Source of the DNA: Actinophytocola xanthii
GTDB taxonomy: Bacteria; Actinomycetota; Actinomycetes; Mycobacteriales; Pseudonocardiaceae
Length of the DNA: 64,000 nt
Reading direction: 5' to 3'
Assembly: GCF_001921205.1 (NCBI RefSeq)
Contig: NZ_MSIE01000037.1
Coordinates: forward strand, 1 to 64,000
Shown here: piece after piece, positions 15,610-47,915 of the stretch
How positions within the stretch are numbered: position 1 is the first letter of the stretch
Layout: every line of letters starts with the position of its first letter
Translations under genes and position numbers: made by a program
Notes under the pieces: model-generated
Told to the model about the DNA's origin: nothing
The model's input: the letters and a program-made list of their open reading frames with translations, nothing else
Database searches by the model: none

Positions 15610-16256
15610 TCCGCCTGGGGGCCGCCCGCATCGGTCGGGTCGTGGCGCTCGGCGCGCACTGCGACGACATCGCCATCGGCGCCGGCGGCACGCTGCACGC
15701 GCTGTGCCGCGCGCGGCCCGGACTGCGGGTCGACGCGCTCGTGCTCTCCGGCGGCGGCACCGAGCGGGAGGACGAGGAGCGCGCGGCGCTCGCCGCGTTC
15801 TGCCCGGACGCCGACCTCGACGTGACGGTGCTGAAGCTCCCCGACGGGCGGCTGCCAGCGCACTGGGACGAGGCCAAGTCCGCGCTCGAGGAGCTGCGCG
15901 GGCGCACCGAGCCCGACCTGCTGCTGGCGCCGCGCACCGACGACGCGCACCAGGACCACCGTGGCCTCGCCCAGCTGGTGCCGACGGCGTTCCGTGACCA
16001 CCTGGTGCTCGGCTACGAGATCGTCAAGTGGGACGGCGACCTAGCCCGCCCCACCGTGTACCAGCCGCTCACCCCGGAACTGGCGGAGCGGAAGGTGGAG
16101 CTGCTGGCGCGGTACTACCCGTCCCAGCGACACCGCCCCTGGTACGACCGCGAGGCCTTCCTCGGGTTGGCGCGGATCCGGGGGATCGAGTGCCAGTCGC
16201 GCTATGCGGAGGCATTCCACGTCACGAAGCTGGTTCTCGACCTGGAGGGCAACTGA
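15606..16256 (+). CDS. PIG-L family deacetylase
   Basis: 216 residues. [15 protein letters not shown] is the zinc motif, with HCDD in place of the common HPDD, and [10 protein letters not shown] supplies the third metal ligand. The family removes acetyl from GlcNAc-type sugars or related amides. GTG 15606 overlaps the previous stop. Lying between a nucleotidyltransferase and an epimerase, it probably acts on a nucleotide sugar or lipid-linked sugar of the polymer; it could equally hydrolyse another N-acyl sugar. Confidence 0.82.
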
Positions 16257-16257
16257 C

Positions 16258-18548: not shown

Positions 18549-18553
18549 CGGAC

Positions 18554-21980: not shown

Positions 21981-22522
21981 AGGCCCGCCCGGTGCCGGAG
22001 ATCGCCGGCGCGTTCCTGTTCGAGCCGACCCCGCACGCCGACGAGCGCGGGTTCTTCTCCCGGACGTTCGACCACGACGTCGTCGCATCGGTCGGCATCG
22101 ACCCGGACGGGTTCGTCCAGGACAGCCTCTCCCGCTCGCGTCGCGGCGTGCTGCGCGGGATGCACCTGCGCTCGGGCCGGGGCGAGGCCAAGCTCGTCCG
22201 CTGCTCCTACGGACAGGTCTTCGACGTGGTGGTGGACCTGCGGCCGGACTCCCCGACCTACCTCAACCAGGGGCACTTCACGTTGTCCGGCGACACCCAG
22301 GTGACGCTGTACGTGCCGGCCGGCTGTGCGCACGGGTTCCAGGCGCTGACCGACCCGGCCGACGTGTCCTACCGCATCGACCGCGCGCACGACCCGTCCG
22401 AGGACGTGTCGATCGCGTTCGACGACCCGGAGCTCGCCATCCCGTGGCCGTTACCCGTGGCGCTGATGTCCGAACGGGACAAACGAGCGCCCTCGCTGCA
22501 GGCCGCGTTGGAAGGGATTTAG
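21977..22522 (+). CDS. dTDP-4-dehydrorhamnose 3,5-epimerase family protein (RmlC/RfbC-like)
   Basis: 181 residues, the usual length. GVLRGMHLRSGRGEAKLVRC holds the catalytic His and Lys, FDVVVDLRPDSPTY the conserved strand, and VPAGCAHGFQAL the second His block. It epimerises a 4-keto-6-deoxy sugar nucleotide at C3 and/or C5. A glucose-1-phosphate thymidylyltransferase (RmlA) and dehydratase (RmlB) are not in the window. Codon 159 is TTA (22451-22453), a rare Leu codon here. Confidence 0.88.
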   Translation: MKARPVPEIAGAFLFEPTPHADERGFFSRTFDHDVVASVGIDPDGFVQDSLSRSRRGVLRGMHLRSGRGEAKLVRCSYGQVFDVVVDLRPDSPTYLNQGHFTLSGDTQVTLYVPAGCAHGFQALTDPADVSYRIDRAHDPSEDVSIAFDDPELAIPWPLPVALMSERDKRAPSLQAALEGI

Positions 22523-22527
22523 GGCCA

Positions 22528-23838
22528 GTGGATTTCACGAACTCCCGCGAGGCGAACAAGCGCCTGCACGACCTGGTGCCCGGCGGGGCGCACACCTACG
22601 CCAAGGGCGAGGACCAGTACCCCGAGGGCATGGCGCCGGTGATCTCGCACGGCCGCGGTGCACACGTCTGGGACGTCGACGGGCACGGCTACATCGAGTA
22701 CGGCTCCGGGCTGCGTTCGGTCAGCCTCGGCCACGCCCACCCCCGAGTGACCGAGGCCGTGCGTGCCCAGCTCGAGCTGGGGTCGAACTTCGTCCGGCCC
22801 GGGGTGATCGAGCTGGAGGCCGCGCAGCGCTTCCTGGCCACCGTGCCGACCGCGGAGATGGTCAAGTTCGCCAAGAACGGCTCGGACGCGACCACCGCCG
22901 CGATCCGGCTCGCCCGGGCCGCGACCGGCCGGTCGATGGTCGCGATCTGCCGCGACCAGCCGTTCTTCTCCACCGACGACTGGTTCATCGCCACGACGGC
23001 CATGGCCGCCGGCATCCCCTCGGCCGTCGCCGAGCTGACGGTGACCTTTCCCTACGGCGACCTGACGGCGCTGGAGAACCTGTTCGCCCTGCACGACGGG
23101 CGGATCGCCTGTGTCGTGTTGGAGGCCGCGACCCAGGCTGACCCGCCGCCCGGGTACCTGCGCGGCCTGCGCGAGCTGTGCACCCGGCACGGCGTCGTGC
23201 TGGTGTTCGACGAGATGATCACCGGCTTCCGCTGGTCGGAGTCCGGCGCGCAGGGCGTGTACGGCGTGACGCCCGACCTTTCCACCTTCGGCAAGGCGCT
23301 GGGCAACGGGTTCGCCGTCTCCGCACTCGCCGGAACCCGCGAGCTGATGGAGCTCGGCGGCCTGCGGGACAGCCGCGAGCGGGTGTTCCTGCTGTCGACG
23401 ACGCACGGTGCCGAGGCGCCGGGGCTCGCCGCGGCGATGGCGGTCATGGAGACCTACGTCGAGGAGGGCATCGCCGAACGGCTGCACGCGCTCGGCGCAC
23501 GCCTCGCCGCCGGGGTGCGCGCGGTGGCCGCGACCGCCGGCGTCGCCGAGCACGTGGTGGTGCGGGGCCGGGACAGCAACCTCGTGTTCGCCACGCTCGA
23601 CAACCAGGGCAGGCCCTCCCAGGAGTACCGGACGCTGTTCCTGCGCCAGCTGCTGTCCGGCAGCGTGCTCGCCCCGTCGTTCGTGGTGAGCAGCGCACTG
23701 TCCGAATCGGACATCGACCGCACGGTCGAGGTGGTCGCCAGGGCCTGTGCGGTGTACCGGCGCGCACTCGACGCGGACGACCCGACGCCGTGGATGGGCG
23801 GCCGCGCGGTCCGTCCGGTGTTCCGACGCTTCGCCTGA
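22528..23838 (+). CDS. Class III PLP aminotransferase, glutamate-1-semialdehyde aminomutase-like
   Basis: 436 residues, GTG 22528. Motifs: NGSDATTAAIRLARA, VFDEMITGFR (Asp contacting PLP), and STFGKALGNGFAVSAL with the PLP-binding Lys. Close in sequence to HemL but lying in a sugar operon 5 bp after an epimerase gene, so the likely substrate is a keto-sugar or related intermediate rather than a heme precursor. HemL-like paralogs in surface polysaccharide loci are common; substrate not deducible. Confidence 0.82.
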   Translation: MDFTNSREANKRLHDLVPGGAHTYAKGEDQYPEGMAPVISHGRGAHVWDVDGHGYIEYGSGLRSVSLGHAHPRVTEAVRAQLELGSNFVRPGVIELEAAQRFLATVPTAEMVKFAKNGSDATTAAIRLARAATGRSMVAICRDQPFFSTDDWFIATTAMAAGIPSAVAELTVTFPYGDLTALENLFALHDGRIACVVLEAATQADPPPGYLRGLRELCTRHGVVLVFDEMITGFRWSESGAQGVYGVTPDLSTFGKALGNGFAVSALAGTRELMELGGLRDSRERVFLLSTTHGAEAPGLAAAMAVMETYVEEGIAERLHALGARLAAGVRAVAATAGVAEHVVVRGRDSNLVFATLDNQGRPSQEYRTLFLRQLLSGSVLAPSFVVSSALSESDIDRTVEVVARACAVYRRALDADDPTPWMGGRAVRPVFRRFA

Positions 23839-23847
23839 GGAGTGACG

Positions 23848-24645
23848 ATGGACGTTCGTAGCCGAGTCCGGCAGGCCGGCGGTCAGGTCGAGGAGCTCCT
23901 GCAGCGGACCCTCAGCCGGGTCGGGATGAGCCAGCCGGAGACGACGATCTCCGCGGACGCGCAGGACTACTGGTCCGACGCCGGCGGTGCGCGCTGGAAG
24001 GCCAACTCGCACTGGCGCGACGCCTCGGTGTTCGACGGGAGCGACCTCTGGTCCCGGATCGGCCGGCGCCACCTGGAGATGTTCCAGCGCGGCGCCCGGC
24101 TGACCGGGTTCGACCGGCCGTGGGGGCGGGTCGTGGAGTGGGGCTGCGGGGGCGGTGCCAACGCGGTGCACTTCGCCGAGGCCGCCACCGAGTTCGTCGG
24201 TGTGGACGTGTCGGCCGAGAGCCTCGAGGAGTGCGGTCGGCAGGTGGCAGCACACTGCGACACCCCGTACCGGCCGGTGCTGGTCGAGGTGGCCGACCCC
24301 GAGCGCGCCGTGGACGAGATCGGTCCCTGCGACGTCTTCCTCTGCTGCTACGTCTTCGAGCTGCTGCCAACGCCGGAGTACGGCGAGCGGTTGCTGCGGG
24401 TGGCCCAGCGGTTGTTGAAGCCGGGCGGTCTGGCCCTGATCCAGGTGAAGTACCACGACGGGGGCTTCTGGACGCGCTCCCGCCGGCGTGCCTACCGGAC
24501 CGGGGTCGCCGGCATGACCAGTTACGGGATCGCCGAGTTCTGGGAGCTGGTCACGAAGTCGGGCCTGCGACCGGAGTCGGTCCAGCTCGTGCCGAAGGAC
24601 GAGCTGGACGAGCGCTACGCCTACTTCGTGGTCTCCCGGCCCTGA
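23848..24645 (+). CDS. SAM-dependent methyltransferase
   Basis: 265 residues. VVEWGCGGGANAVHF is motif I of class I methyltransferases, FVGVDVS motif II, and CDVFLCCYVFELL the post-II acceptor site. A C-terminal block KYHDGGFWTRSRRRAY is shared with some sugar O-methyltransferases. ATG 23848 is preferred because GGAG precedes it; GTG 23842 is too close. Last gene of the left arm; its end overlaps the convergent PAP2 gene by 25 bp. Confidence 0.82.
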   Translation: MDVRSRVRQAGGQVEELLQRTLSRVGMSQPETTISADAQDYWSDAGGARWKANSHWRDASVFDGSDLWSRIGRRHLEMFQRGARLTGFDRPWGRVVEWGCGGGANAVHFAEAATEFVGVDVSAESLEECGRQVAAHCDTPYRPVLVEVADPERAVDEIGPCDVFLCCYVFELLPTPEYGERLLRVAQRLLKPGGLALIQVKYHDGGFWTRSRRRAYRTGVAGMTSYGIAEFWELVTKSGLRPESVQLVPKDELDERYAYFVVSRP

Positions 24646-25420: not shown

Positions 25421-25672
25421 ATGCGCCTGCGATCGAACGACATCTCGGCCCGCACCGTCGGTGACGAGACCATCATCCTGAGCCTGTCGGACTCCCAGTA
25501 CTTCTCGGTCACGGGAATCGGGACCCGGATCTTCGAGCTGCTCGGTGAGGAGCACTCGGCCGACGAGCTGGTCGAGCGGATCGTGGGCGAGTACGAGGTG
25601 GACGAGGAGGTCGCCCGCCGCGACGTCGAGGCGTTCGTCGGCCGGCTGCGGGAAGCGCGGCTGCTCCGGTGA
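25421..25672 (+). CDS. Lasso peptide RRE protein (B1, PqqD-like)
   Basis: 84 residues, the usual length for a discrete B1. It binds the leader of the lasso precursor and hands it to the protease. SLSDSQYFSVTGIGTRIFELL is the PqqD/RRE beta-hairpin plus helix; the C-end (DEEVARRDVEAFVGRLREARLL) is the third helix. ATG 25421 has AAAGGAA upstream; an earlier GTG at 25370 would add an unlikely Arg-rich N-end. Its stop overlaps the B2 start (GTGA), coupling the partner proteins. Confidence 0.9.
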   Translation: MRLRSNDISARTVGDETIILSLSDSQYFSVTGIGTRIFELLGEEHSADELVERIVGEYEVDEEVARRDVEAFVGRLREARLLR

Positions 25673-26073
25673 TGCGGCGTCCCCGGTTCCTGATCGAGGT
25701 CGCCTCGGCGCTGTTCTCACTGGCCCGGATCGAGCTCATGCTGCGCCGGCAGGACCTGCGGGTGGTGTGCCACGCGCTGGGAGTGGTCCCCGACCTGGAG
25801 AGCGCGAGCCCGCCGGCCACCGAGCCGGCGGTGTTGCCCGGCTGGGCCAGGACCGCCCTGCGCGCCTGCTCGGCGGTCACCAGCCGGTGGCCCGCGGGGG
25901 ACACCTGCCTGCGCCGCTGCCTGGTTGCCGGCCACCGGCTGCGCCGGCTCTCGCCGGTGCTGCGGATCGGCGTGCGCCGGGACGCGTCCGGGCTGGTCGC
26001 CCACTCCTGGCTGGAGGTCGACGGCCGCACGCTCGACCCCACCGCCGCCGGCTTCGCGACCCTGGGACGCTGA
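25669..26073 (+). CDS. Lasso peptide leader peptidase (B2, transglutaminase-like)
   Basis: 134 residues. Cleaves the leader from the precursor. The catalytic triad is visible: Cys80 (GDTCLRRCLVAGHRL), His112 (VAHSWLEVDG) and Asp123 (RTLDP). The 32-residue Cys-His spacing matches McjB. The N-terminal ~65 residues are helical and variable as in other split B2 proteins. Start GTG 25669 (or ATG 25672) overlaps the B1 stop. One base separates its stop from the kinase start. Confidence 0.92.
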   Translation: MMRRPRFLIEVASALFSLARIELMLRRQDLRVVCHALGVVPDLESASPPATEPAVLPGWARTALRACSAVTSRWPAGDTCLRRCLVAGHRLRRLSPVLRIGVRRDASGLVAHSWLEVDGRTLDPTAAGFATLGR

Positions 26074-26074
26074 G

Positions 26075-27019
26075 GTGTTCACCTACCGCGCCTACGGCCT
26101 CCTGGTCGCGAGCGACATCGCGCTACCGCTGCCGCCGTGCGCCGGCGGCGAACCGGACGTGCTGCTGCGCCGGGGCGCCGACCGCCCGGTCCCCGAGGAG
26201 CGCCCGGGATCCGAGCGCCTGGCCGAGGTGACCCGGCCGGACGGCTCGATCTTCTACACGCTCGGCCGGTCGGCCTCCGGGACCGTGCTGCGGTACCCCG
26301 GCCTGTGCGACTTCGCCGGCGACCCGACGCTCTCGACGGTCTCGGTGCACCTCGCGCCGGGAGCGGACGAGGGCCTGCTCTCGGTGATGATCTCGGGAAC
26401 CCTGCTGGCCGTACACCTGATGCTGCGGCACGCGCATGTGCTGCACGCCAGCGCCGTCCACCGCGACGGCCGCGCGCTGGCGTTCGTCGGCTCGTCCGGG
26501 ATGGGCAAGTCGACGGTGTCGGCGGCGCTCTGCGGGGTCGGCTGCGACCTGGTCTCCGACGACCTGCTCCGGGTCGACCGGGTCGGGGAGACCCTGCTCG
26601 TCCACCCCGGGGGGACCGAGAGCCGCCTGCGGCCGAGCGCCCGTCCCCTCGCGACGGCGGCCCCGGCCGACACCGTCCGCGAGACCGCCGACGGCCGGCT
26701 CGCGGTGAGCCCGCGCACCTGGACCGGTGACCCGCTGCCGCTGGCCGCCTGCGTCGTGCCGCGCCCGGACCGCGCCGCGCAGCGGGTCGCCGTCCGCCGG
26801 CTGCGGCCGTCGATCGCCCTGCTGAGCCTGAGCCGCTACCCGAGGGTCCTGGGCTGGTCCGACCCCGCCTCGGCGGCGGCCGCCTTCCAGTCCCTGGCCG
26901 ACCTGGTCGAACGCGTCCCGGTGTTCGAGGCGACCATCCCCTGGGGCCTCCCGTTCGCCGACGGTGTCCTGGCCGACCTGCTGGACGCGGTGTCGGTCCC
27001 CAGCGCGGTGGCCGGTTAG
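26075..27019 (+). CDS. HPr-kinase-like lasso-tailoring kinase
   Basis: 314 residues. GSSGMGKST (residues ~147-155) is a Walker A P-loop; LVSDDLL and HASAVHRDGRALAFVG match the HPr kinase-like family associated with lasso clusters. In the paeninodin system a homologous enzyme phosphorylates the C-terminal Ser of the peptide (established for that family). The precursor at 30315-30449 also ends in Ser. Start GTG 26075 lies 1 bp after B2, so B1-B2-kinase form one operon. Substrate assignment is inference from this context. Confidence 0.85.
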   Translation: MFTYRAYGLLVASDIALPLPPCAGGEPDVLLRRGADRPVPEERPGSERLAEVTRPDGSIFYTLGRSASGTVLRYPGLCDFAGDPTLSTVSVHLAPGADEGLLSVMISGTLLAVHLMLRHAHVLHASAVHRDGRALAFVGSSGMGKSTVSAALCGVGCDLVSDDLLRVDRVGETLLVHPGGTESRLRPSARPLATAAPADTVRETADGRLAVSPRTWTGDPLPLAACVVPRPDRAAQRVAVRRLRPSIALLSLSRYPRVLGWSDPASAAAAFQSLADLVERVPVFEATIPWGLPFADGVLADLLDAVSVPSAVAG

Positions 27020-29091: not shown

Positions 29092-29107
29092 ACTCCTCCG
29101 CGGCGGG

Positions 29108-30241
29108 TCAGCGAGGGTTCTCGGCCAGCCAGGCCTGCTGCAGCAGTGACATCGTCGGGGCGTGCGGGGTGGGCGAGAGCCAGTTCTCGCGCAGGGCCTC
29201 GGCGTCCACGAGCTCGGGGTCGACGCCCGCGCCGCTCCAGCGGCGGGCGAACTCGCGGGTGTACCGGCGGAAGACGGCGTTGGCGAACAGGGCCTTCGTC
29301 CGGCGCTCCAGGACCTCGCGGGGCAGCAGGTCACCGAACAGGTCGCGCATCGTCGCCGTGCGGCCGGTCCAGCCCCAGTAGCCGCCCGCCGCGGCCACCG
29401 AGGCCACCAGCTCCGGCTCTGCGAACGCCTGGACGTAGTCGGTGTCCATTTCGGAGGCCAGGATCCGCATCGTCTCGTAGCCGATCCGTGCACAGCGCCG
29501 CATCGAGAACTGCCAGGTGTTCTGGCCGGCGTTCAGGGCGTAGGCGGCCTGGTCGGCGGCGTCCCGGCGGGCCAGCAGCTCCTCGGTCTCCTGGCGCAGC
29601 CACGGTCGCCGGTAGCGGTCGCGCAGTGCGGAGCGACGGCGCAGAACTGCCGGGGCCAGCGCTCGGGCCGCGTCCCGGTAGACCGCCGGTGGGACGCGGA
29701 AGCGGGACTTCAGCACCTTTGTCAGCGGGGTGACCCGCTTCAGGCCGAACGCCTCGTCGCCCCCCTCGCCGGTGAGCAGCACACCACCACGGGCGTGGGT
29801 GAGCATCCGGTAGGTCGGGGTGAAGTTAGGGGGCCACACCAGACCGTGCTGTCGGAGAACCCGGATCCCAATCGGACCGAGCGGGTCGTGCTCATCGTGC
29901 ACGGTCAGCACCACGCGTTCGCTGATGCCCAAATGGGACAGTACGGCGTCCTGCCAGGCCGACTCGTCGGCGTCCGCGGCGCCCGGATAGGACAGTGTCA
30001 CGGGGACCGGAACCGGTAGACCCTCTCGGCGCGCGAGGTCGACAGCGGCGGCGAGCAGTACCGAGGAGTCCCGGCCGCCCGAGAACGCGACCAGGCACTC
30101 CGACTTCTGAAGGTGGGGAAGCAGTAGCCGATCGAGTACGCGACGCGGTCGGTCGTGTGGCCCGGCGGGCAGGGGTACCGGGTCGTACCCGTTGACCCAG
30201 CCTCCGGCGACCTCCAGCGGGTCCATTGTATACAAACCCAC
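29108..30241 (-). CDS. Lasso peptide macrolactam synthetase (C), lacking the N-terminal glutaminase-like domain
   Basis: 377 residues. Activates the ring Asp/Glu as an AMP ester and closes the lasso ring. SGGRDSS (54-60) is the ATP-pyrophosphatase loop of asparagine synthetases, and LLTGEGGDEAFG a second signature. The ~200-residue glutaminase-like N-domain present in McjC and most lasso cyclases is absent: only ~50 residues precede SGGRDSS. GTG 30241 with AAGGAGGA upstream, and only 73 bp to the precursor stop, leave no room for it. Cotranscribed downstream of the precursor. Confidence 0.88.
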   Translation of the reverse strand: MGLYTMDPLEVAGGWVNGYDPVPLPAGPHDRPRRVLDRLLLPHLQKSECLVAFSGGRDSSVLLAAAVDLARREGLPVPVPVTLSYPGAADADESAWQDAVLSHLGISERVVLTVHDEHDPLGPIGIRVLRQHGLVWPPNFTPTYRMLTHARGGVLLTGEGGDEAFGLKRVTPLTKVLKSRFRVPPAVYRDAARALAPAVLRRRSALRDRYRRPWLRQETEELLARRDAADQAAYALNAGQNTWQFSMRRCARIGYETMRILASEMDTDYVQAFAEPELVASVAAAGGYWGWTGRTATMRDLFGDLLPREVLERRTKALFANAVFRRYTREFARRWSGAGVDPELVDAEALRENWLSPTPHAPTMSLLQQAWLAENPR

Positions 30242-30314
30242 GCCGCTCCTCCTTTGGTTGGCGCACGGAGGCCGCGGCGTCGTTCCAGGATACGACGCCG
30301 CGGCCTCCTCACGA

Positions 30315-30449
30315 TCACGAGTAGTTGTCGCCGAGGATCGGGATGATCCAGGTCAGGTTGTCGGAGGACTCACCGAACAGGTTGGCCTGGGTCACGTCCG
30401 TGAGCGATCCCAGCGCGGTGAGCTCCGGTGCCTCGTATGGCTTCCGCAT
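30315..30449 (-). CDS. Lasso peptide precursor (A)
   Basis: 44 codons after GGAGGTG at ideal spacing. Leader residues 1-21 begin MRKPYEAPELTALG and match YxxPxLxxxGxxxxxT exactly (Tyr5, Pro8, Leu10, Gly14, Thr20). With Thr20 at the penultimate leader position, the 23-residue core begins at Ala22. The ring would be ANLFGESSD, closed between Ala1 and Asp9; the tail is NLTWIIPILGDNYS. Trp and Tyr are candidate steric plugs. The C-terminal residue is Ser, the acceptor of HPr-kinase-like enzymes in related systems. Length, ring size and terminal Ser parallel paeninodin. Upstream of and cotranscribed with the cyclase; divergent from the exporter. Confidence 0.9.
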   Translation of the reverse strand: MRKPYEAPELTALGSLTDVTQANLFGESSDNLTWIIPILGDNYS

Positions 30450-30621
30450 TTTTCACCTCCTCGAGCGCATCGGGAATACTGGTTGTTACGTCGCCCGGGG
30501 TCGGCAATCATTACTGCGCAAGGGATAACGTTTGATATCGGAACAGGCTGGACGGTAACGAAAACGCTGCGTAATCGGACGTCAGGTACAGAAACCTTCT
30601 GACCGAGATCGAGGATTTCTT
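30450..30621. promoter_or_regulatory. Divergent promoter region of lasso precursor and exporter
   Basis: 172 bp, more AT-rich than its surroundings, between two divergent starts. A possible plus-strand promoter is TTGATA-N17-GTAACG (30531-30559), weak at -10. No repressor palindrome stands out. Both the precursor/cyclase unit and the exporter must be driven from here. Confidence 0.5.
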
Positions 30622-32394
30622 GTGCGACTGGGACGTTTGGCGAAAGCCTCGCTAGCCACACCGCGTCTCGTGCTGGCCGCCGCACGGGAGGTACGGCAGG
30701 CCGACCGTTCGGGAACCCTTGTGGCGTCGGCATATCAGCTCGTCGGCGCGGTCGCGGCACTCGGGGTCGTCGTCACCGGGAAACTCACCTTCGACGCCCT
30801 GCTGACCCCCGAGCGGGCCGCGCTCGGTCTCACGCCCTCGCTGTTGCTACTGGCCCTGACGACGGCGCTGTCCGGAGCAGTGAGTCCACTCCAGACTCAG
30901 CAGCACCGGATCCTGGGCGAGCGGGTGTCGCAGCGGGTGTGGGACCGGTTACTGGACACGACCGCGCGGGCCGACCTGGTCACCTACGAGTCGACCGGTT
31001 TCGCCACGGCTCTCGAAAGGGTTCAGCAGAACGCGCTCACCCGGCCCTTCGCCGTGACGACCGCGCTGCTCGGGCTCACCGGGAGCCTGCTGGGTGTCGG
31101 CGCGATGTCGGCGGTGCTGCTCACGGTGGAGCCGTTGCTGCTGCCGTTGCTGCTCGCCGCGGGCGTGCCGGCCGTGCTGCTGTCCCGCTGGGCCAGCCGT
31201 ACCGAGTTCGCCTTCGCCCACCGGTTGACCGCGCTGTTCCGCCGGCGGGACTACCTGCGCCAGCTGCTGACCCGGCGGCCCTATGCCGCCGAGGTGCGCG
31301 CCTTCGATGCCACCCCGCGGCTGCGTGAGCGGCACGAGCGGATGAACGTCGAGGTGAACGCCGCACTGCGGGCGCAGGTGCGCCGCCGCCAGCTCGTCGC
31401 GGCGCTCACCACGCTGGGCGTCGCGGCGGCGCTCACCGCGGCGCTGCTCGCGATCGTGCAGCTGGTCCAGTCCGGACGGATCGGCCTGGCCGAGGCCGGC
31501 GCGGCCGCCATCGCCGTGCGCATGCTGTCCGGCCAGCTCGGCACGCTGTTCTCCTCGATCGGCGGCCTGCTGGAGTCGGCGCCGTTCCTCGCCGACCTGG
31601 AACGCTTCGTCACCTCCGGGCCGCCGGCCGCCCCGCGCGGGCGCAAGCGGCCGCTGGCCGCCGGTGTCGCGCTGCGCGGGGTCCGCTTCGGCTACCCGGG
31701 TCAGGCGCGCTACGCCGTCGACGGCGTTGACATCGAGATCCGTGCCGGAGAGGTGGTCGCGCTGGTCGGCGAGAACGGCTCCGGCAAGACGACGCTCGCC
31801 AAGATCGTCGCCGGGCTGTACGAACCGGACACCGGTACCCGGCACTGGGACGGTGTCGCCCTGCCCGCGCCCGACGTCCGCGCCTCGGTCACCGTGATCT
31901 TCCAGGACTTCGTGCGGTACCAGATGTCGCTGCGGGACAACATCACGATCAGCGACGACGGCGGCTCGGCCGAGCTGGCCGAGGAGGCGGCCCGCGCGGC
32001 GGGGCTGCTGCGTGCGGTCGGCCGGCTGCCCGACGGCATGGACACCGTGCTCGGCCGTGACCTGGACGAGGGCGTGGACATCTCCGGCGGTCAGTGGCAG
32101 CGGGTGGCGCTGGCCCGAGCGCTCTACCGGGACACCCCGCTGATCGTGCTCGACGAGCCGGCGGCGGCACTGGACCCGCGTGCGGAGCACGAGCTGTTCA
32201 CCAACGTCCGCGCGACCCTCGGCGGACGGGCGGCGCTGCTGATCTCGCACCGGTTCTCCAGCACGAGGATGGCCGACCGGATCTACGTCATGGCCGACGG
32301 CCGGGTCGTGGAGTGCGGCACCCACGACGAGCTGATGGCCGCGGCCGGCCAGTACGCGGAGCTGTACCGCCTCCAGTCGGCCGCCTACCGCTGA
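30622..32394 (+). CDS. ABC exporter for the lasso peptide (D)
   Basis: 590 residues, a fused exporter: about six transmembrane helices in residues 1-320, then an ATP-binding domain with GENGSGKTT (Walker A), ISGGQWQR (signature) and LIVLDEPAAALD (Walker B), and a switch His in LLISHRF. Homologous to McjD-type exporters that also give immunity. GTG 30622 has GAGGA upstream. Codon 110 is TTA (30949-30951), a rare Leu codon that in many actinomycetes makes translation depend on the bldA tRNA. Confidence 0.9.
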   Translation: MRLGRLAKASLATPRLVLAAAREVRQADRSGTLVASAYQLVGAVAALGVVVTGKLTFDALLTPERAALGLTPSLLLLALTTALSGAVSPLQTQQHRILGERVSQRVWDRLLDTTARADLVTYESTGFATALERVQQNALTRPFAVTTALLGLTGSLLGVGAMSAVLLTVEPLLLPLLLAAGVPAVLLSRWASRTEFAFAHRLTALFRRRDYLRQLLTRRPYAAEVRAFDATPRLRERHERMNVEVNAALRAQVRRRQLVAALTTLGVAAALTAALLAIVQLVQSGRIGLAEAGAAAIAVRMLSGQLGTLFSSIGGLLESAPFLADLERFVTSGPPAAPRGRKRPLAAGVALRGVRFGYPGQARYAVDGVDIEIRAGEVVALVGENGSGKTTLAKIVAGLYEPDTGTRHWDGVALPAPDVRASVTVIFQDFVRYQMSLRDNITISDDGGSAELAEEAARAAGLLRAVGRLPDGMDTVLGRDLDEGVDISGGQWQRVALARALYRDTPLIVLDEPAAALDPRAEHELFTNVRATLGGRAALLISHRFSSTRMADRIYVMADGRVVECGTHDELMAAAGQYAELYRLQSAAYR

Positions 32395-32443: not shown

Positions 32444-33556
32444 TCAGCCGCGGCGCCCGCGCAGGGCCTCGCGGACCCCGAAACCGAAGCGGGACAGGGC
32501 CGAGCTGTGCCGGCCGTCCGTGTAGCGGTCGTCCGGGAACACCAGCGCGCGCAGGTAGGCGGCCTTGTCCCGCACCCCGGGCAGGACCGGCAGCGTGGCG
32601 ATGGCCTGGGCGGCGAAGGTCTTGCCCGCGTGGGTGTGCAGGGCGAGCCACGACTCCTCGCGCCTGGTCGGCACGAAGTCACGGGCCCAGGTGCGCAGCG
32701 GGCCGTCCACCGGCAGGCCGAGCAGCCGGGTCGAGTCGGCCACCGCGGCCGCGACGACGGCCTGCACCCCCCAGGCGGTGGCCGTGGCGATCACCGCGTG
32801 CTCGTCGGCCGGAACCAGCTGGGCGACGTCGCGCAGCGAGCCGAGACGAAGCGGCCAGTCGCCGAGGGCGGCGTGGTAGCAGGCGTGCAGGAAGCGGTTG
32901 GGGGCCGACAGGGTGGTCAGCGTCCGGCCGCCCACCTCGAAGGTCTCCGACGTGGCCCAGAGCGCGTCGAGGTCGACCAGCACGCCCCACGGGCCGAGGA
33001 CGAACGTCCGGTGCAGGTCCAGCTCGAAGCCCTCGGCCCGCAGCGTCGTGCCCTTGTCGAAGCGGCGGTCGAAGCCGGGGCGCGGCTCGGCCAGGGTGCG
33101 GACGAAGCCGGCGCCGACCAGTGTGGCCACCGCGGCGTCGAAGTCGGTCGGACGGAACAGCAGGTCCAGGTCGATGAACGAGCGCAGCGCCGGGTCCGGG
33201 TAGTCCAGGTGCGCGTACGCGCTGCCCTTCAGCACCCTGGTCTCGAGGCCTGCCTCGGCGAGCCGGTCCACCACCCCGACCAGCTCCCGCTCCAGCGAGA
33301 GCACCCGCAGCAGCAGGGCCCGGTGCACCGCGCGGACCTGCGCGGCCTGTGCGTCGGTGGCGGGGAGCTCGCCCGAGGCCACCGCGGCCCGGAGGTGTCC
33401 GAGGAGACGGTGCTTGCGGGCCGCGCCCAGCAGGGCGGTCCAGTCCTCCTCGGCGAGCGGCAGGCGGGGGAACACCCGCTCGCTGGGCAGACCGGTCGCG
33501 GCGACCGCGAGCAGGGTCGCCGGGTACGCGTCCTCACCGCACAGCCTGCGCGCCAC
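32444..33556 (-). CDS. Nucleotidyltransferase-family lasso-tailoring protein
   Basis: 370 residues of the NTP_transf_5-type (PF14907-like) nucleotidyltransferase fold. RVLKGSAYAHLDYPDPALRSFIDLDLLFRP carries the conserved KG and DxD motif (DLDLLF). In the Bacillus pseudomycoidin cluster a protein of this family was reported, as I recall, to extend the phosphorylated C-terminus with hexoses. GTG 33556 follows GAGGAGG and lies inside the end of the glycosyltransferase gene (23-bp overlap), so it is expressed as the last gene of the polysaccharide right arm. Function here is inferred. Confidence 0.75.
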   Translation of the reverse strand: MARRLCGEDAYPATLLAVAATGLPSERVFPRLPLAEEDWTALLGAARKHRLLGHLRAAVASGELPATDAQAAQVRAVHRALLLRVLSLERELVGVVDRLAEAGLETRVLKGSAYAHLDYPDPALRSFIDLDLLFRPTDFDAAVATLVGAGFVRTLAEPRPGFDRRFDKGTTLRAEGFELDLHRTFVLGPWGVLVDLDALWATSETFEVGGRTLTTLSAPNRFLHACYHAALGDWPLRLGSLRDVAQLVPADEHAVIATATAWGVQAVVAAAVADSTRLLGLPVDGPLRTWARDFVPTRREESWLALHTHAGKTFAAQAIATLPVLPGVRDKAAYLRALVFPDDRYTDGRHSSALSRFGFGVREALRGRRG

Positions 33557-34736
33557 GGCGAACCTCCTCGTCGGACAGCACGGATCGGTAGCCGGCGACC
33601 AGCTCGCGCAGCCCGACCCGCGGGGTGAACTCGGCCTCGTACCGCGAGCGGGCGGCGGCACCGAGAATCGGTGAGAGCGGGCCCACCCGGCGCAGCGCCT
33701 CGGCGAGCGACGCGGGGTCACCGGGTCGGTGGGTCAGGCCGGTCACGCCGTCGGCGACCAGCTCCGCCAGGGCCCCGTGCCCGGCCACCACCGAGGGCAC
33801 GCCGGCCGCCGCGGCCTCCACGACCACCAGGCCGAAGGTCTCCATCCAGACGGAGGGAGCCACCACGGCCACGGCGTCGGCCACCAGGGCCCGTCCCGCG
33901 GCCCGGTCCACCAGCCCGACGAACCGGACGTCGGAGCGCTCGGCGGCCCACGCGGCGACCTCGTCCTGGAGCGGGCCGGCACCGGCGATGACCAGCGGCA
34001 CGCCCGGCCTGGCCTCGTCCCAGGCCGCCATCAGCAGGCGCAGCCCCTTCTCCTCGGCCAGCCGGCCGAGGTACAGCAGGTAGGAGCCGTCGCCGATGCG
34101 CCGGGCGCCGGCGTCGGGCACGAAGTTGTACTTCACCGCCAACAGCTCCGCGGGCATGCCAGCGGCGACCAACGTGTCCCGCTGGGCGGCGGAGATGCAG
34201 AAGAACCGGGAGACCGACGACCACCAGCGCCTGCGGTTCGCCAGCAAGCTCAGCGCGACCGGGACCGTCGCGGCGGACGAGCCCCGGTAGCAGCCGTGGC
34301 GCACGGCCGGGAGCGGGGAACGGCCGACGCAGTCCGTGCAGACGCCGCCGTCGCGGTAGAGCGTCCCGGTCGGACAGACCTGGGTGTAGTTGTGCAGCGT
34401 CGCCACCACCGGAATGCCGGCCGTCGTGCACGCGTCCAGCACGGCCGGCGACATGAGCGGGAAGGTGTTGTGCACGTGCACGACGTCCGGACGGACGGCG
34501 TGGATGCGGGCCAGCATGGCCTCGCGCGCCGCCCGGTTGTACGGCACCCGCAGCGGCACGCCCACCTTGTCCAGCAACGACATCGTCGCGATGTCGTCGC
34601 TGCGCCGCTCGAACAGCTCGACCCGGTGACCTGCCTCGCGGAGCAGTGCGGTCTCCTGGTCGACCACGTTGTCCTCGCCGCTGGGCTGCGCCGACCGGTA
34701 CCGGTTGTGCACCACGAGTACGGAGAGATCGGTCAT
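33534..34736 (-). CDS. Family 4 glycosyltransferase
   Basis: 400 residues. GT-B fold: N-domain MTDLSVLVVHNRYRSAQPSGED and HVHNTFPLMSPAVLDA; C-domain LLYLGRLAEEKGLRLLMAAW and SVWMETFGLVVVEAAAAGVPSVV with the EX7E motif (ETFGLVVVE). Transfers a sugar to a lipid-linked acceptor with retention. ATG overlaps the stop of the Wzy-like gene (ATGA) and its end overlaps the nucleotidyltransferase gene, so a role in decorating the lasso peptide is an alternative to polymer synthesis. Confidence 0.88.
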   Translation of the reverse strand: MTDLSVLVVHNRYRSAQPSGEDNVVDQETALLREAGHRVELFERRSDDIATMSLLDKVGVPLRVPYNRAAREAMLARIHAVRPDVVHVHNTFPLMSPAVLDACTTAGIPVVATLHNYTQVCPTGTLYRDGGVCTDCVGRSPLPAVRHGCYRGSSAATVPVALSLLANRRRWWSSVSRFFCISAAQRDTLVAAGMPAELLAVKYNFVPDAGARRIGDGSYLLYLGRLAEEKGLRLLMAAWDEARPGVPLVIAGAGPLQDEVAAWAAERSDVRFVGLVDRAAGRALVADAVAVVAPSVWMETFGLVVVEAAAAGVPSVVAGHGALAELVADGVTGLTHRPGDPASLAEALRRVGPLSPILGAAARSRYEAEFTPRVGLRELVAGYRSVLSDEEVRRGAQAVR

Positions 34737-35956
34737 GTGCGCACCTCGGGGCGGGGTGTCGAGCGGGCGCCGGTGGCGAGCAGCGCCGCGGCGAGGAACA
34801 GGTTCAGCAGGTAGGGCGAGGCGTCGCCGAGGCCGGCCTCGGTGTAGGACGCGATGATGGTGTAGAAGATCAGGAACAGCGCGCAAGCGCGTGCCAGCGA
34901 CGGTGGCCGCAGGGCCGCCACGGCGAGCAGCGTTGCCAGGAACGCCACCACGAGTGCGAGTCCCATATAGCCCTGCTCCTGGTAGACGGCCAGCCAGCTG
35001 GAGTCGATCGGCAGGCCGTCGAAGGACTTGTTGGTCAGGCCGACGCCGAGGAACTGCTCGCTGACCGTGCGTGGAGCCGCCAGGAGCGCGTCCCAGACCT
35101 TCTCCCGGCCCGTCAGCGAGGACAGGTCGTCCTGCCCGCGCCGGAACCAGGTCTGCAGGGCCGGCCCGACCACCAGCACGGCCAGACCGGCGGCCAGCGC
35201 CGCCCGGGTGAACACCTTCCGCGCCCGTTCCGATGTGGACGCCAGGGAGAGCAGGGCGACGGCGAGCCCGGCCACCAGCCCGATCAGTGCGGTACGGGTG
35301 TGGCTGAGGAGCAGCAGACCGACCGCGGGAACGGCGAGCAGCAGCATGCTCGTACGCGTCGTGCGGTTGCCCAGCCACAGCAGCACGACCAGACCGGTGA
35401 CCGTGGCGGAGTACAGGCCGACCTGGGGCGGGGTCAGCGGCCAGATCGCTCCCACCACGCGTCCGCCGTAGGACTCCGGCCGGGCGGTGCCCGGGGAGAT
35501 CACCAGTCCCAGTAGGACGGTGGCGAGCACGGCCGCGATCGCCCGGACGTGGTGACGGACCAGTGCCAGCCAGTCGTGCCACCAGCGGGTGACCAGCCAG
35601 AGCGTGGCCACGAAGACGGTGAACCGGAAGCAGCGCAGCAGTGCGCCGTAGCCGGACTCCATCCGCACGCTCGACGCGATCGAGGCCACCAGCAGCAGCG
35701 TGAGGATCAGCAGGTACGCGCTCGGCCGGAGCTGGATCCGCGGGTTGATCAGCAGTGCCAGCAGGAACGCGCCGACCACGGCGCCCATCGTGACGATCTG
35801 GGCGACCGGCTTCGGGATCGGGATGATCGTGTCCGCGCCCTGGGAGCCCAGGGTGTTGATCACCAGCAGTGTCCAGACGGCACCCAGCAGGCGGGGCGCC
35901 GGGTCGCCGAGGAAGTTCTGGTCGGCCACCGCGTCGCGCGGTGAGAGCAGGCTCAT
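34733..35956 (-). CDS. Wzy-like polysaccharide polymerase / O-antigen ligase family protein
   Basis: 407 residues with 10-12 hydrophobic helices. The large periplasmic loop between later helices contains SLTGREKVWDALLAAPRTVSEQFLGVGLTNKSFDGLP, resembling the Wzy_C/WaaL domain loop (Arg-rich, RxxxW, GxG). It would link repeat units outside the membrane, matching the flippase at 18554. Both junctions are ATGA overlaps. Confidence 0.85.
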   Translation of the reverse strand: MSLLSPRDAVADQNFLGDPAPRLLGAVWTLLVINTLGSQGADTIIPIPKPVAQIVTMGAVVGAFLLALLINPRIQLRPSAYLLILTLLLVASIASSVRMESGYGALLRCFRFTVFVATLWLVTRWWHDWLALVRHHVRAIAAVLATVLLGLVISPGTARPESYGGRVVGAIWPLTPPQVGLYSATVTGLVVLLWLGNRTTRTSMLLLAVPAVGLLLLSHTRTALIGLVAGLAVALLSLASTSERARKVFTRAALAAGLAVLVVGPALQTWFRRGQDDLSSLTGREKVWDALLAAPRTVSEQFLGVGLTNKSFDGLPIDSSWLAVYQEQGYMGLALVVAFLATLLAVAALRPPSLARACALFLIFYTIIASYTEAGLGDASPYLLNLFLAAALLATGARSTPRPEVRT

Positions 35957-36816
35957 GGCTTGGCCCGCAACCGCACCCACAGGTGCCAGCCCAGCCGCTC
36001 GCCGAACGGCAGTCGGTGCACGGGCAGCGGCGGCGCGTGCATGTAGCGGCGGAACCACTCCTCGAGCTCGAAGTCGGGGAAGTCGCGGGTCACCTCGCGC
36101 GGGGAGTACACCCTGGCGAACGGGTTGAACGGCCCGTCGGTGTTGCGGTGGGTGAAGGTCTCCAGCTCGAGGTACCGGCGCAGCCCGATGCGCTCGGCGT
36201 TGGCCAGGTGGGCGCGCAGCATGTCCGACCGCCCGGCCATCCGCGTACGGCGCAGGGGGTAGGCGGCCGCCAGCACGGCCCTGCGCACCAGCCGGATGCT
36301 CACCTGGAAGTTCAGCGAGTCCCGCGCGTAGAGCATGGCGACCAGCGTGCCGCCGGGCCGCAGCACGCGCCGGATCTCGGCCTGCGCGGTGTGGATGTCC
36401 GGGATGTGGTGCAGGACGCCGTGGCTGAACACGTAGTCGAAGCTGTTGTCCGGGTAGGGGATCGACAGGGCCGAGCCCTGCTTCAGCGCGTCGTGGGGCA
36501 GCTCGCGCGTGCGCAGCCGGGCGCGGACGCGCTCGACCGACTCGGCTGTCAGGTCGAGGCCGGACCACCGGGCGCCGCGGCGGATCAGCTGCTCGGACTC
36601 AGCGCCCTGGCCCAGGCCGATCTCCAGGACCCTCTTGCCCCGCCAGTCGAACCGGTCCAGGCAGGCGAGGATGTGGCCCTCCTGGTCGTAGCGCCATGCG
36701 TCGTAGGCGGCGAAGAAGCGCTCGTAGTCGTCGGCGAACTCCCCGTGCAGGCCGCCCACGATGTGGTCGCCGCAGGGATGCGCGTTCCAGAACGCCTGGA
36801 CCTCTGTCTCGTTCAT
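35953..36816 (-). CDS. SAM-dependent methyltransferase
   Basis: 287 residues. VLEIGLGQGAESEQLI (motif I), WSGLDLTAESVERV (motif II) and DYVFSHGVLHHI (post-II) are clear class I methyltransferase features. The N-end FWNAHPCGDHIVGG recurs in methyltransferases of polysaccharide clusters. ATG 36816, GGAG upstream. Probably methylates a sugar or its carboxyl group; acceptor unknown. Confidence 0.85.
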   Translation of the reverse strand: MNETEVQAFWNAHPCGDHIVGGLHGEFADDYERFFAAYDAWRYDQEGHILACLDRFDWRGKRVLEIGLGQGAESEQLIRRGARWSGLDLTAESVERVRARLRTRELPHDALKQGSALSIPYPDNSFDYVFSHGVLHHIPDIHTAQAEIRRVLRPGGTLVAMLYARDSLNFQVSIRLVRRAVLAAAYPLRRTRMAGRSDMLRAHLANAERIGLRRYLELETFTHRNTDGPFNPFARVYSPREVTRDFPDFELEEWFRRYMHAPPLPVHRLPFGERLGWHLWVRLRAKP

Positions 36817-36829
36817 GCCACTTCTCTCC

Positions 36830-38344
36830 TCAGCCGCCTGACTGGACGTAGGTGCTGCGCCGGTCCTGCGAGTACGGCGGGGACTGCCACTGCGGCGGCT
36901 GGATGACCTTGCCGGTGTCCACGGCGAGGTAGGTCCAGGGACCGATGTAGTGGTTGTTTCGCCAGGTGTTGTTCTGTTCGAACGTGATGGCCTGCTGGAC
37001 CGAGTCCGCCCGGTAGGGCGACCAGTCCGGGAAGGTGCCGTAGTTGGAGATGAGCGCCATCCGTGCGCACAGCGAGTCACAGCCGATCGAGCGCGGCTCG
37101 ACGGAGAACAGGTTGTCGTGGATGTCGACGTTCTGGGTCTTCCAGCGGCAGTCGTCGTAGAGCGGGTCCTTGCTGATGTTCGGCGCGGCGCAGCTGGCCA
37201 TGTCCGGCACCAGCCGGGTGCAGCCGCCGGAGGTGTTGGCCGGGCTGTTGCAGTACCGGTCCGCGTTCTCCCACAGGGTGATCCCGGCCCAGTTGTCGAT
37301 CAGCGCGTTTCCGTAGATGTCGAGCTTGTCCGTCCGCGCCGGGACCCGGCCCTCGCCGCCGGACTCGGAGATGTAGATGCTCGCCGCCGGGAAGCTGTCA
37401 CCCCGGTTGGCGAACTCCCGGCCCTCGACGATGTTGTTGCGCCGGATGGTGTTCCCGCGGATCGTCGCGTTGTAGCTGATCTCGTAGAAGATCGCCGGCC
37501 CGTCGTTGTCCTCGATCAGGTTCTTCTCGATCAGGAAGTCGTTGTTGTTGGTGTCGGCCCACAGGCCGGTACCGCGGTTGTCGTGCACCCAGTTCCCGCG
37601 GATGTCGGCGCCGTCGACCGCCCAGAACTTCACCCCGCCGGTGCAGCCGCAGCCCTCGATCTTGGACTCCCAGTCGTCGGTGTTGTTGCCGACGATCTCG
37701 TTGCCCTCCACGACCAGGTCCCCGATCGGACCGTTCTTGTAGGCGTTGATGCCGTACTGCCCGTTGTCGCGCAGGCAGTTCCCGCGGACCTGTTGCCGGG
37801 CTCCGGCCATCATCCCGGCGCCGCCGTTGTCCTCGATCGTGTTGTTCTCGATGACCCAGCCGTCACCCGAGTCGTGGTTGACCACGCCCTCGTCCGCCGG
37901 GGCGACGAAGCCGCGGACGGTGAGGCCGCGGATCGTGACGTCGGCGGCCTGCGCCACGAACGCGTACTTGTTGCGTTCCTGCCCGTCGAGCACCGCGCCG
38001 GGGGCACCGAGGTAGACGTTGCCGTCCTTGGGACTCACCGAGCCGAACTCGCCGGTGCCCAGGGTGTGGGTGCCGGGCTCGAGCCAGAACGTGGTGCCGG
38101 CCGGGCTCTGCTCGGTCCTGTCGGCGAGGTCGCCGTCCACGTCCGCGTCGACGGTGACGGCCCCGGCCGGCGCGGCGGCGGGGCCGGGCACCGTGTGCCC
38201 ACAGACCGCCGTCACGTCACCGGCCGGGTTCTCCTCGTTGACGCCGCCTGACTGGTCGACGGAGGTCGTACAGGAGAAGGCCAGCAGCGACAGTGCACCC
38301 AGGGACGCGGTAACGCGTGCACGGGTCCACAGTCGAGTGTCCAC
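36830..38344 (-). CDS. Secreted right-handed parallel beta-helix protein
   Basis: 504 residues. GTG 38344 with GGAGG upstream; the N-end has a hydrophobic segment ending LAFSC, a weak lipobox, so it may be a lipoprotein. The body is a repeat of NNTIEDNGG, GNEIVGNN, KNLIEDNDG, GNTIRRNN type coils, a pectate-lyase/epimerase-like beta-helix. It sits beside a heparinase-like lyase, as in alginate-type loci where AlgG (beta-helix) and AlgL act together in the envelope. Epimerase, lyase or scaffold role cannot be decided. Confidence 0.8.
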   Translation of the reverse strand: MDTRLWTRARVTASLGALSLLAFSCTTSVDQSGGVNEENPAGDVTAVCGHTVPGPAAAPAGAVTVDADVDGDLADRTEQSPAGTTFWLEPGTHTLGTGEFGSVSPKDGNVYLGAPGAVLDGQERNKYAFVAQAADVTIRGLTVRGFVAPADEGVVNHDSGDGWVIENNTIEDNGGAGMMAGARQQVRGNCLRDNGQYGINAYKNGPIGDLVVEGNEIVGNNTDDWESKIEGCGCTGGVKFWAVDGADIRGNWVHDNRGTGLWADTNNNDFLIEKNLIEDNDGPAIFYEISYNATIRGNTIRRNNIVEGREFANRGDSFPAASIYISESGGEGRVPARTDKLDIYGNALIDNWAGITLWENADRYCNSPANTSGGCTRLVPDMASCAAPNISKDPLYDDCRWKTQNVDIHDNLFSVEPRSIGCDSLCARMALISNYGTFPDWSPYRADSVQQAITFEQNNTWRNNHYIGPWTYLAVDTGKVIQPPQWQSPPYSQDRRSTYVQSGG

Positions 38345-38358
38345 AGCAGAACCTCCGG

Positions 38359-40341
38359 CTAGCGGTCGAAGCACAGCAGGGTGGTGAGCACGGCGTCGCC
38401 GCCGATCGAGCCGGTGCCGACGAGGGTTGTCGCCGGTTCGAGGCGGCCGAAGCCCGGCGAGTACCAGCCGAGCGGGGGGTCGGTCTCGCCGCGGTGGGCC
38501 GACCAGGACAGGTCGGGCGGCAGCTCGAGCACGGCACCGTGGCCACCGTGCTCGTCGGTCCAGGTCAGGCGGGCCGAGCTGCCCTCGAGGACCGCCGTCA
38601 CCGCCGGGCCGAGGTGGAAGGCGAGCCGCGCCCGGTACGGGCCCCGGCCGTACACCTCGTCGAACACCCGCAGCTCGCCGGACTCCGCTCCCAGCTCGAC
38701 CGTGCGGCGGTGGGTCGCCGGTGTGGGGCCCTTGGCATAGCCGTCGTGCTCCGCGCTCCAGCGGGCCGTGCCGCCCTCCGGCGGGACGTCGACGGCCAGC
38801 ACCCGGCTCCGCGCGTGCCGCGTCCACAGGAACGGCCCGCCGCTGTCGGACTGGTCGCGCCCGGCCAGCTCCAGGGTGTTGTGCCCGAGGGTGGAGCGGA
38901 AGTAGGCCCGCCACCGCGGCTGACCGTGGTAGCAGTAGGTACCCGGGTCGGCGAGGATCTCCACCCCGCCGTGGCGGACCTCGAGCGACAGCGCGTCGGC
39001 ATGGGCGTGTGCCGCGATCGACAGGAACCCGTGTGGACCCCCGTCGCAGCGGCACCAGATCTCCCGGGCACCGGACCGGGCGCGGAGCACGGTCAGCCCG
39101 GCGTCGCCGAGGTGCGTCGGGCGGACGGCCGGCCGGACCGCCGCCGGCACCGGCACACCCTTGCCCAGGGCAGTCAGCAGCGGCGTGCGGACATCGGTAG
39201 CGGCCACCTCCGGCCACCACTCGCGCCGGCCGAACAGCGCGGTGCCGGTGGCGAGCAGCGAGCCCCAGCGGTGCGTGCCGGCCCCGTCGAGCACCAGGCC
39301 GTGGCCGTCGTCGGCGTCGCCCTGCCTCGGTGGGGCGAGGCGGGTGTCGACGACCGCTGCCAGCGCGTCGCACATCCGGACCAGCACCAGCCAGGTCGTC
39401 TCCGGCACCTCGACGCCGGCCGCGTGCGCCTCCAGCGCCGCGGCAAGACCAAGCTCGAGCACCAGGCCGTGGTACTCGGTCGCGAGCTCGCGGTTGAGCC
39501 CGGAGCCGAACGTGTTTCGCTGCAACTGCGCGTCCAGCAGCCGCAGCGCGGCGGAGCGCCAGGTCGGCGACTCGGGGAACCAGTCGAACGCCGTGGCGGC
39601 GGCCAGCTGCCCGGCGGCCTCGGCGATCACGTGGTTGTTGGCCGACGAGCCCCGGCTGGGGAACGCCGCGAGCCAGCGCTGGTGCTGGCGGATCTGGTGC
39701 AGCGCGACCGGGTTGTCGTCGAACAGGGCGGTGACGCCGGGCCAGCCGTCCAGCAGCCTGCGTACCCACACCCAGGACAGCAGCCGGATGCCCAGCTCGA
39801 TCCCGCTCACCCAGTGCACCCCGCGCATCGGCGGGTTGGCCGCCCACCACGACCGCAGGTGCTCGGCGACCCGCGTGGCGTAGCGGTCCTCACCGGTCAG
39901 CGCGTACGCAGCGGCCAGCACGGTGAGGTGCTGGTGGCGGGAGGGCTCCCAGATCTGCTTGATGTCGCCGACCGCGTCCTCGCTGCGGTAGGGGATGTCG
40001 AAGGCGTACCGGTCGGCCGGTGCCGACCGCCCGGTCTTCGGGTCACGGGACCAGTCCGGTGCCACCAGGTCCTCGCGCGGCACGCCGAAGTACTCCGCCC
40101 GGCCGGCCACCAGCTCGTCGGCCGTTGCCGTGAGCCGGGCGACGGCGTCGGCCGGCACCGCGGCCAGCACGCCGGGCTCCAGCACCGGCGCGGGCGTCCG
40201 GTGGGCGAGCCAGGTCTCGCGCACCGGCGCGTCCAGCTCCCGGCGCCAGCGCCGTCGGCGCACCACGTCGCCCAGCCGGCCGGCGACCTCCGCCGGGCCC
40301 ATCCGGGACAGGCGGCGCAGGTACCAGCCGGGGGACATCAC
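38359..40341 (-). CDS. Heparinase II/III-like polysaccharide lyase
   Basis: 660 residues. N-terminal alpha/alpha-toroid (EHLRSWWAANPPMRGVHWVSGIELGIRLLSWVW; SSANNHVIAEAAGQ with the catalytic Asn-Asn-His-like motif), then a Hepar_II_III beta-sandwich (FLSIAAHAHADALSLEVRHGG; ADPGTYCYHG; STLGHNTLEL). No signal peptide, which is common in this branch. Such lyases cleave uronic-acid polymers; in synthesis loci they trim chains or clear misplaced polymer. GTG 40341 or ATG 40338; overlaps the previous stop. Confidence 0.85.
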   Translation of the reverse strand: MMSPGWYLRRLSRMGPAEVAGRLGDVVRRRRWRRELDAPVRETWLAHRTPAPVLEPGVLAAVPADAVARLTATADELVAGRAEYFGVPREDLVAPDWSRDPKTGRSAPADRYAFDIPYRSEDAVGDIKQIWEPSRHQHLTVLAAAYALTGEDRYATRVAEHLRSWWAANPPMRGVHWVSGIELGIRLLSWVWVRRLLDGWPGVTALFDDNPVALHQIRQHQRWLAAFPSRGSSANNHVIAEAAGQLAAATAFDWFPESPTWRSAALRLLDAQLQRNTFGSGLNRELATEYHGLVLELGLAAALEAHAAGVEVPETTWLVLVRMCDALAAVVDTRLAPPRQGDADDGHGLVLDGAGTHRWGSLLATGTALFGRREWWPEVAATDVRTPLLTALGKGVPVPAAVRPAVRPTHLGDAGLTVLRARSGAREIWCRCDGGPHGFLSIAAHAHADALSLEVRHGGVEILADPGTYCYHGQPRWRAYFRSTLGHNTLELAGRDQSDSGGPFLWTRHARSRVLAVDVPPEGGTARWSAEHDGYAKGPTPATHRRTVELGAESGELRVFDEVYGRGPYRARLAFHLGPAVTAVLEGSSARLTWTDEHGGHGAVLELPPDLSWSAHRGETDPPLGWYSPGFGRLEPATTLVGTGSIGGDAVLTTLLCFDR

Positions 40342-42620: not shown

Positions 42621-42635
42621 GACTCTTCCCTCGTC

Positions 42636-44546: not shown

Positions 44547-44558
44547 GTGGTCGCCCTC

Positions 44559-47758: not shown

Positions 47759-47848
47759 CCTGTGTACTCCCCTCGCTGTGCTCGCCAGCACGCACAAACA
47801 CCGGCTAGCAGGGCTTTCACTCGTCCCGTCGCCCGTGTCACCGCTTTG

Positions 47849-47877: not shown

Positions 47878-47915
47878 AACGGGACCGAATGTGGGGAGGG
47901 GAATTCATTCGGTTG

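Follow-up and report, generated by a model that had tools for sequence, protein, structure and literature searches.

A conserved lasso peptide gene family of Actinophytocola xanthii and other Pseudonocardiaceae, with genes for predicted C-terminal phosphorylation and perhaps glycosylation

Among the described lasso peptides closest to the one analyzed here, pseudomycoidin carries a phospho-Ser to which one or two hexoses are then added, the addition of hexose being the work of PsmN, with nucleotidylation not excluded (PMC9266682). The H, K, D and D residues of the lasso kinases are reported to be essential (PMC9266682; for BsfK, PMC10368454). BsfK acts on Ser3 in the ring of a precursor that has no terminal Ser (PMC10368454), and therefore the presence of a kinase does not by itself fix the site of modification. 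In 2026, lasso clusters with a kinase, located among polysaccharide genes, were described in Bacilli (PMC13381572); the role of such peptides is left open there, and a part in biofilms is called speculation.

The window analyzed in this work is a stretch of 64,000 nucleotides of Actinophytocola xanthii (assembly of 8.34 Mb in 204 contigs), and its features are collected in Table 1. The preliminary description of this DNA had proposed a lasso precursor gene of 44 codons with a perfect ribosome site and the leader rule YxxPxLxxxGxxxxxT. The reading frame, the ribosome site and the leader rule were all confirmed, with the addition that the gene (gene A), whose strand had been left unstated, is read on the minus strand from 30449 to 30315, giving the leader MRKPYEAPELTALGSLTDVTQ followed by the core ANLFGESSDNLTWIIPILGDNYS; the plus strand of the same segment encodes no such product. 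The strict leader motif occurs once in all six frames of the window, against a mean of 0.02 in 100 dinucleotide-preserving shuffles, and this mean falls to 0 once a core of 13–40 residues with D/E at positions 7–9 is also required. The product passed the NCBIfam model lasso_leader_L3 (25 bits, cut-off 19), stayed below the cut-off of the lasso_cyano model (25.8 bits, cut-off 33) and gave no match in a Pfam search. With Thr at leader position -2, C adjacent, and B1 and B2 at a distance of 3 to 5 kb, it is near certain that gene A encodes a lasso precursor.

Table 1. Features of the window discussed in the text.
Feature	Position	Strand	Remarks
Left polysaccharide-type part	11925..24645	+	Initiating sugar transferase, C-methyltransferase, epimerase, dTDP-sugar isomerase, class-III aminotransferase, DUF4910
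B1, PqqD-like leader-binding (RRE) protein	25424..25672	+	PF05402, 62 bits
B2, leader peptidase	25669..26073	+	NF033537, 56 bits (cut-off 33); PF13471
HprK-like kinase	26075..27019	+	H124, K145, D162, D163 (H-K-D-D intact)
Glyoxalase-like	27046-27480	-	Between kinase and C
DinB_2	27483-28061	-	Between kinase and C
HTH/WYL regulator	28117-29091	+	Between kinase and C
C, asparagine-synthase-like macrolactam synthetase	29108..30241	-	PF00733, 62.9 bits; SGGxDS intact
Inverted repeat between A and C	30267..30308	-	17-bp perfect, 8-base loop; RNA hairpin z -5.7
Gene A, lasso precursor	30315..30449	-	44 codons + stop; leader 30387-30449, core 30318-30386
Ribosome binding site AGGAGGTGA	30453..30461	-	Ends 3 bases before gene A ATG
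D, ABC exporter (MsbA-like)	30622..32394	+	Divergent from gene A
NTP_transf_5 protein, nucleotidyltransferase fold	32444..33556	-	PF14907, 121.3 bits; start inferred
Right polysaccharide-type part, first	33534..52068		Two group-1 glycosyltransferases, Wzy_C-like protein, methyltransferase, beta-helix protein
Right polysaccharide-type part, rest	33534..52068		Heparinase II/III, dehydrogenase/oxidoreductase, asparagine synthase, two UDP-glucose dehydrogenases

A search of related genomes, suggested earlier as a check, was carried out as a GTDB scan and recovered the same precursor family in 10 further named Pseudonocardiaceae species (three Actinophytocola, four Amycolatopsis, two Prauserella and one Qaidamihabitans), where it is flanked by C and the ABC exporter gene; together with the window this gave 11 orthologues. 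Within Actinophytocola, four of the six genomes searched (own included) had the C gene and two did not. All orthologues retain L3, F4, G5, D9, L11, T12, W13, P16, I17, G19 and D20 of the core and end in Ser preceded by Tyr or Phe, the window core being the shortest of them (23 residues, versus 24 in one relative and 25 in nine). Since D9 is invariant while position 6 varies, we take D9 as the ring acid; Glu6 was ruled out in this role, as its position is acidic in only two of the 11 orthologues. The core lacks Cys, hence the assignment to class II. The earlier proposal of a class II core that starts at Ala22 and closes from Ala1 to Asp9 is supported by these comparisons as a prediction. The terminal Ser had been missed as the best conserved part of its hydrophilic tail end and the likely site of modification. 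Of the two plug candidates named earlier, Trp13 is invariant, and Tyr22, next to the terminal Ser, may be a plug or a part of the kinase recognition site.

Literature text searches with core fragments found no paper, and the core may be listed in lasso databases or supplements; we take it to be unlike the paeninodin core. Neither the precursor family nor its polysaccharide setting in actinobacteria was met in the literature searched. An Isoptericola precursor (L078, 9814), with the core QNLFQGLHDSDGWIRGGENYS, resembles the window core at both ends.

B1, for which a GTG at 25370 is an alternative start, matches in sequence TbiB1, a solved leader-binding protein (E 7.8e-10); a further match is the B1 of entry 9x90 (E 2.7e-6). 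A PDB search by the sequence of C gave no match at E up to 0.1. B1, B2 and the kinase gene form one unit on the plus strand. In the 10 relatives this unit is followed by the ABC gene on the opposite strand and then by A and C. The ABC-A-C block of the window is inverted relative to them (region 27046-32394), and the glyoxalase-like, DinB_2 and HTH/WYL genes stand between the kinase and C. None of these three was found in the 20-kb loci of six relatives and, since the insert 27046-29091 is absent there, its genes are probably not part of the lasso pathway. A different insert, comprising an MFS-like transporter, a helix-turn-helix protein and a methyltransferase-like protein (named by eye), separates C from the NTP_transf_5 gene in A. 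gossypii (L048, 11130-14105), so this spot takes up inserts.

The inversion and the three unrelated genes could also be taken as signs of decay, i.e., of a once working system that they broke. We consider this very improbable, because all reading frames are intact with their motifs kept, and because pS exceeds pN in gene A in nine of 10 pairs over the leader codons (the exception being Amycolatopsis marina, 0.12 versus 0.15) and in all 10 over the first 20 core codons, a comparison in which a recent loss of expression would leave no trace. These values point to purifying selection on gene A.

Hairpins similar to the one predicted between A and C occur in eight of the 10 relatives, and when the 11 loci, that of the window among them, were shuffled 100 times each, nine had an inverted repeat that was equalled in at most three shuffles, the misses being L055 (14 of 100) and L057 (95 of 100). 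Aligning the sequences upstream of gene A for a conserved promoter gave some blocks common to four Actinophytocola sequences only. Elsewhere in the same genome (contig C68, L021, 5594-7941), a second lasso-type C gene and a B1-B2 fusion are present, around which a ribosome-site scan recognized no precursor.

The preliminary call of a lasso precursor stood, but the kinase and NTP_transf_5 genes had been overlooked. The kinase scores below every curated cut-off (37.5 bits of 200 for TIGR04352; 22.1 of 33.3 for PF07475) and was therefore identified by its motif and its fold; its sequence had no PDB match at E up to 0.1. The model (pLDDT 95.2) has PEP carboxykinase and HPr kinase as its closest solved folds, and in 66 aligned kinase rows the H, K, D and D are kept in 62, 62, 65 and 61, respectively. 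Three kinase relatives have lost this motif (L074; L077, an Acidimicrobiaceae MAG; L081, 7783-8784; among them R-H/T-D-G and R-T-D-S); L081 also has an intact kinase copy, and one L077 precursor still ends in Ser. The kinase gene directly follows B1 and B2 in the window and in all 10 relatives, and in the window an HprK-like kinase with H-K-D-D is combined with a C-terminal Ser in the core.

To place this combination in a wider context, 246 genomes of the class were surveyed for B2, giving 87 matches, of which 80 surroundings were fetched (omitted were two own matches, one under the cut-off, two with an internal stop and two at contig ends). A kinase was present within 5 kb at 22 of the 80 lasso loci. 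Among distinct precursors, the terminal residue was Ser in 19 of 20 with a kinase within 5 kb versus two of 26 without (Fisher p 9e-10, which is too small as the rows share ancestry, although the cores are diverse); these counts exclude the loci where no precursor was recognized (four of 22 with and 33 of 58 without the kinase), and at least one of the precursors listed without a kinase (L180) looks spurious. Both Ser-ending precursors on the no-kinase side come from one locus (L218), which in a 20-kb fetch has a kinase about 8 kb away; at first only G467 and G503 of the 80 loci had been extended to 20 kb, an asymmetric step, and in 20 hand-picked no-kinase loci later extended to the same length no kinase was found. 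The single exception on the kinase side (L190) ends in ...FTSG, thus in Gly, and its kinase is distant (50 bits). Among the relatives found through C, Ser ends 44 of the 45 precursors beside an intact kinase, identical ones being counted repeatedly.

By analogy, then, Ser23 is likely to be phosphorylated. Another reading would direct the kinase to Ser7 or Ser8 of the ring, for which there is the precedent of BsfK acting on Ser3 (PMC10368454), and the window core has indeed SS at these positions; but Ser7 is Ser in six of the 11 orthologues and Ser8 in four, versus 11 for the terminal Ser, and such poor conservation speaks against a ring phosphosite, which we hold to be most unlikely. For the favored modification of Ser23, the expected mass given earlier (core minus water) still holds, and since the terminal Ser is likely modified, the masses of the phosphorylated form and of the form that also carries a hexose, which had been left out, should be added to it. 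For the window core the calculated values are M 2520.217 for the lasso ([M+H]+ 2521.225), M 2600.184 with phosphate and M 2762.236 with both phosphate and hexose. The kinase-to-terminal-Ser rule thus tells which masses to look for.

In the NTP_transf_5 protein, K108, G109, R123, D127, D129, D178 and H180 are invariant in all 45 aligned rows. A PDB search by its sequence gave no match at E up to 0.1; its model, with a pLDDT of 78 and poor quality over the final 70 residues, resembles nucleotidyltransferases (five matches with E of 0.001 or less) and, less closely (E about 0.01), FKRP, a ribitol-phosphate transferase. As in the pseudomycoidin system, an NTP-transferase-like protein is present, and its catalytic motif is intact as judged from the Pfam match and the invariant residues. 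It is a candidate phospho-Ser glycosyl or nucleotidyl transferase, and hexosylation of the phosphate by this protein is plausible.

The lasso genes lie between two polysaccharide-type parts, in which the Wzy_C-like protein scores just below the cut-off (30.7 bits versus 31.7) and Pfam did not establish a flippase or chain-length regulators. Over the class, polysaccharide genes were found within about 10 kb at 15 of 20 kinase loci versus one of 20 others (20-kb fetches, p 1e-5), where the 20 no-kinase loci were hand-picked from 58 and the 20 kinase loci were taken from 22, leaving out one short contig and one fetched earlier (L220). With L219 (polysaccharide genes present) and L220 (no match) included, the kinase loci give 16 of 22. 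Within 5 kb the contrast is weak (five of 22 versus three of 58, p 0.03), and one of these three is a locus whose kinase was later found farther out. Among the relatives found through C, 31 of 38 loci with a kinase have at least one polysaccharide gene in the fetched flanks; the loci were scored with profiles built from such polysaccharide genes. The setting of the window and the locus counts agree with the report on Bacilli (PMC13381572), and this setting suggests a cell-surface or matrix role of the lasso peptide.

Such a neighborhood also allows the kinase and the NTP_transf_5 protein to be assigned to the polysaccharide locus, leaving an ordinary class II lasso without tailoring. In the window, both genes are indeed separated from A and C, and the NTP_transf_5 gene adjoins a glycosyltransferase gene; however, the constant position of the kinase gene after B1 and B2, together with the class-wide association of the kinase with terminal Ser, makes this reading improbable. 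It is also conceivable, if doubtful, that the lasso peptide is built into a cell-surface polysaccharide, with the NTP_transf_5 protein linking phospho-Ser23 to a sugar or growing glycan and giving a lasso-glycan phosphodiester. If true, the two-precursor relatives described below would attach two different lassos via one kinase and one transferase.

The reading that we favor, and consider quite likely, is a paeninodin/pseudomycoidin-like pathway to a class II lasso. In it, B1 would bind the YxxPxL leader, the HprK-like kinase would phosphorylate the precursor at its C-terminal Ser23, B2 would cleave after Gln21, and C would form the Ala1-Asp9 amide around the tail, after which the phosphate would probably receive a hexose (or nucleotide) from the NTP_transf_5 protein and the product would leave through the ABC exporter. 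What can be read directly in the sequences compared here is that the gene set is intact, that the ring acid and the terminal Ser are conserved, and that this Ser is associated with the kinase; the order of steps, the phosphorylation and the glycosylation we infer from paeninodin, pseudomycoidin and Bsf.

Five relatives (L051, L053, L054, L055 and L057) carry tandem precursors, A1 (e.g., GQSQGSRLDADFAAGTIFGDLTFS) and A2 (the window's kind), with two C genes and, over the sequence fetched, a single B1, B2, kinase and exporter gene. A1 and A2 are unrelated cores within one cluster, and both end in an aromatic residue and Ser, as would follow if they shared a single kinase. In the tree of C, the C1 sequences fall into one clade (96/95) and those of C2, together with a Pseudonocardia row, into another (100/99). 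Of 13 loci, 12 combine A1 with C1 and A2 with C2; a Pseudonocardia MAG (L058) departs from this, as its A1- and A2-like precursors have a single C in the sequence within reach. A tblastn search of the window for remnants of A1 or C1 gave no sign of A1; it returned the window's own C (42%), weakly the AsnB gene (E 0.01), and the rest at E 0.1 or worse. The five two-precursor, two-cyclase clusters offer a natural experiment on how cyclase specificity is determined.

Compared with the known systems, the window shares with paeninodin (PadeA, kinase PadeK; Paenibacillus) the class II type, a C-terminal Ser as the site of modification and an HprK-like kinase in which H-K-D-D is present (PMC9266682). 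Paeninodin belongs to Bacillota, and the WxxP leader of its subfamily (PMC13381572) is replaced here by YxxP (YEAP in the window, with Y in all 11 orthologues). Pseudomycoidin (PsmK, PsmN; Bacillus) has likewise a kinase and an NTP-transferase-like gene (PMC9266682), but it comes from another phylum and has another core, and glycosylation by the window protein is a prediction. The Bsf cluster of Bradymonas sediminis contains A, B1, B2, C and D with a kinase and a nucleotidyltransferase, and differs in Ile at -2, phosphate on Ser3 and a core ending in Asp (PMC10368454). In paeninodin-like clusters of Bacilli that lie in capsular polysaccharide loci, such as pba of Paenibacillus alginolyticus, as in the window, lasso genes, a kinase, an NTP transferase and an MsbA-like exporter are located among polysaccharide genes (PMC13381572); the window differs in its origin from Actinomycetota, in its YxxP leader, and in that no SpI peptidase or LPP genes were recognized in it. 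The kind of system is therefore already known, and what appears to be added is a conserved actinobacterial lasso family with a predicted gene set for phosphorylation and perhaps glycosylation. With the pairing of kinase-type lasso and polysaccharide genes in a second phylum, the question of their role becomes testable in Pseudonocardiaceae.
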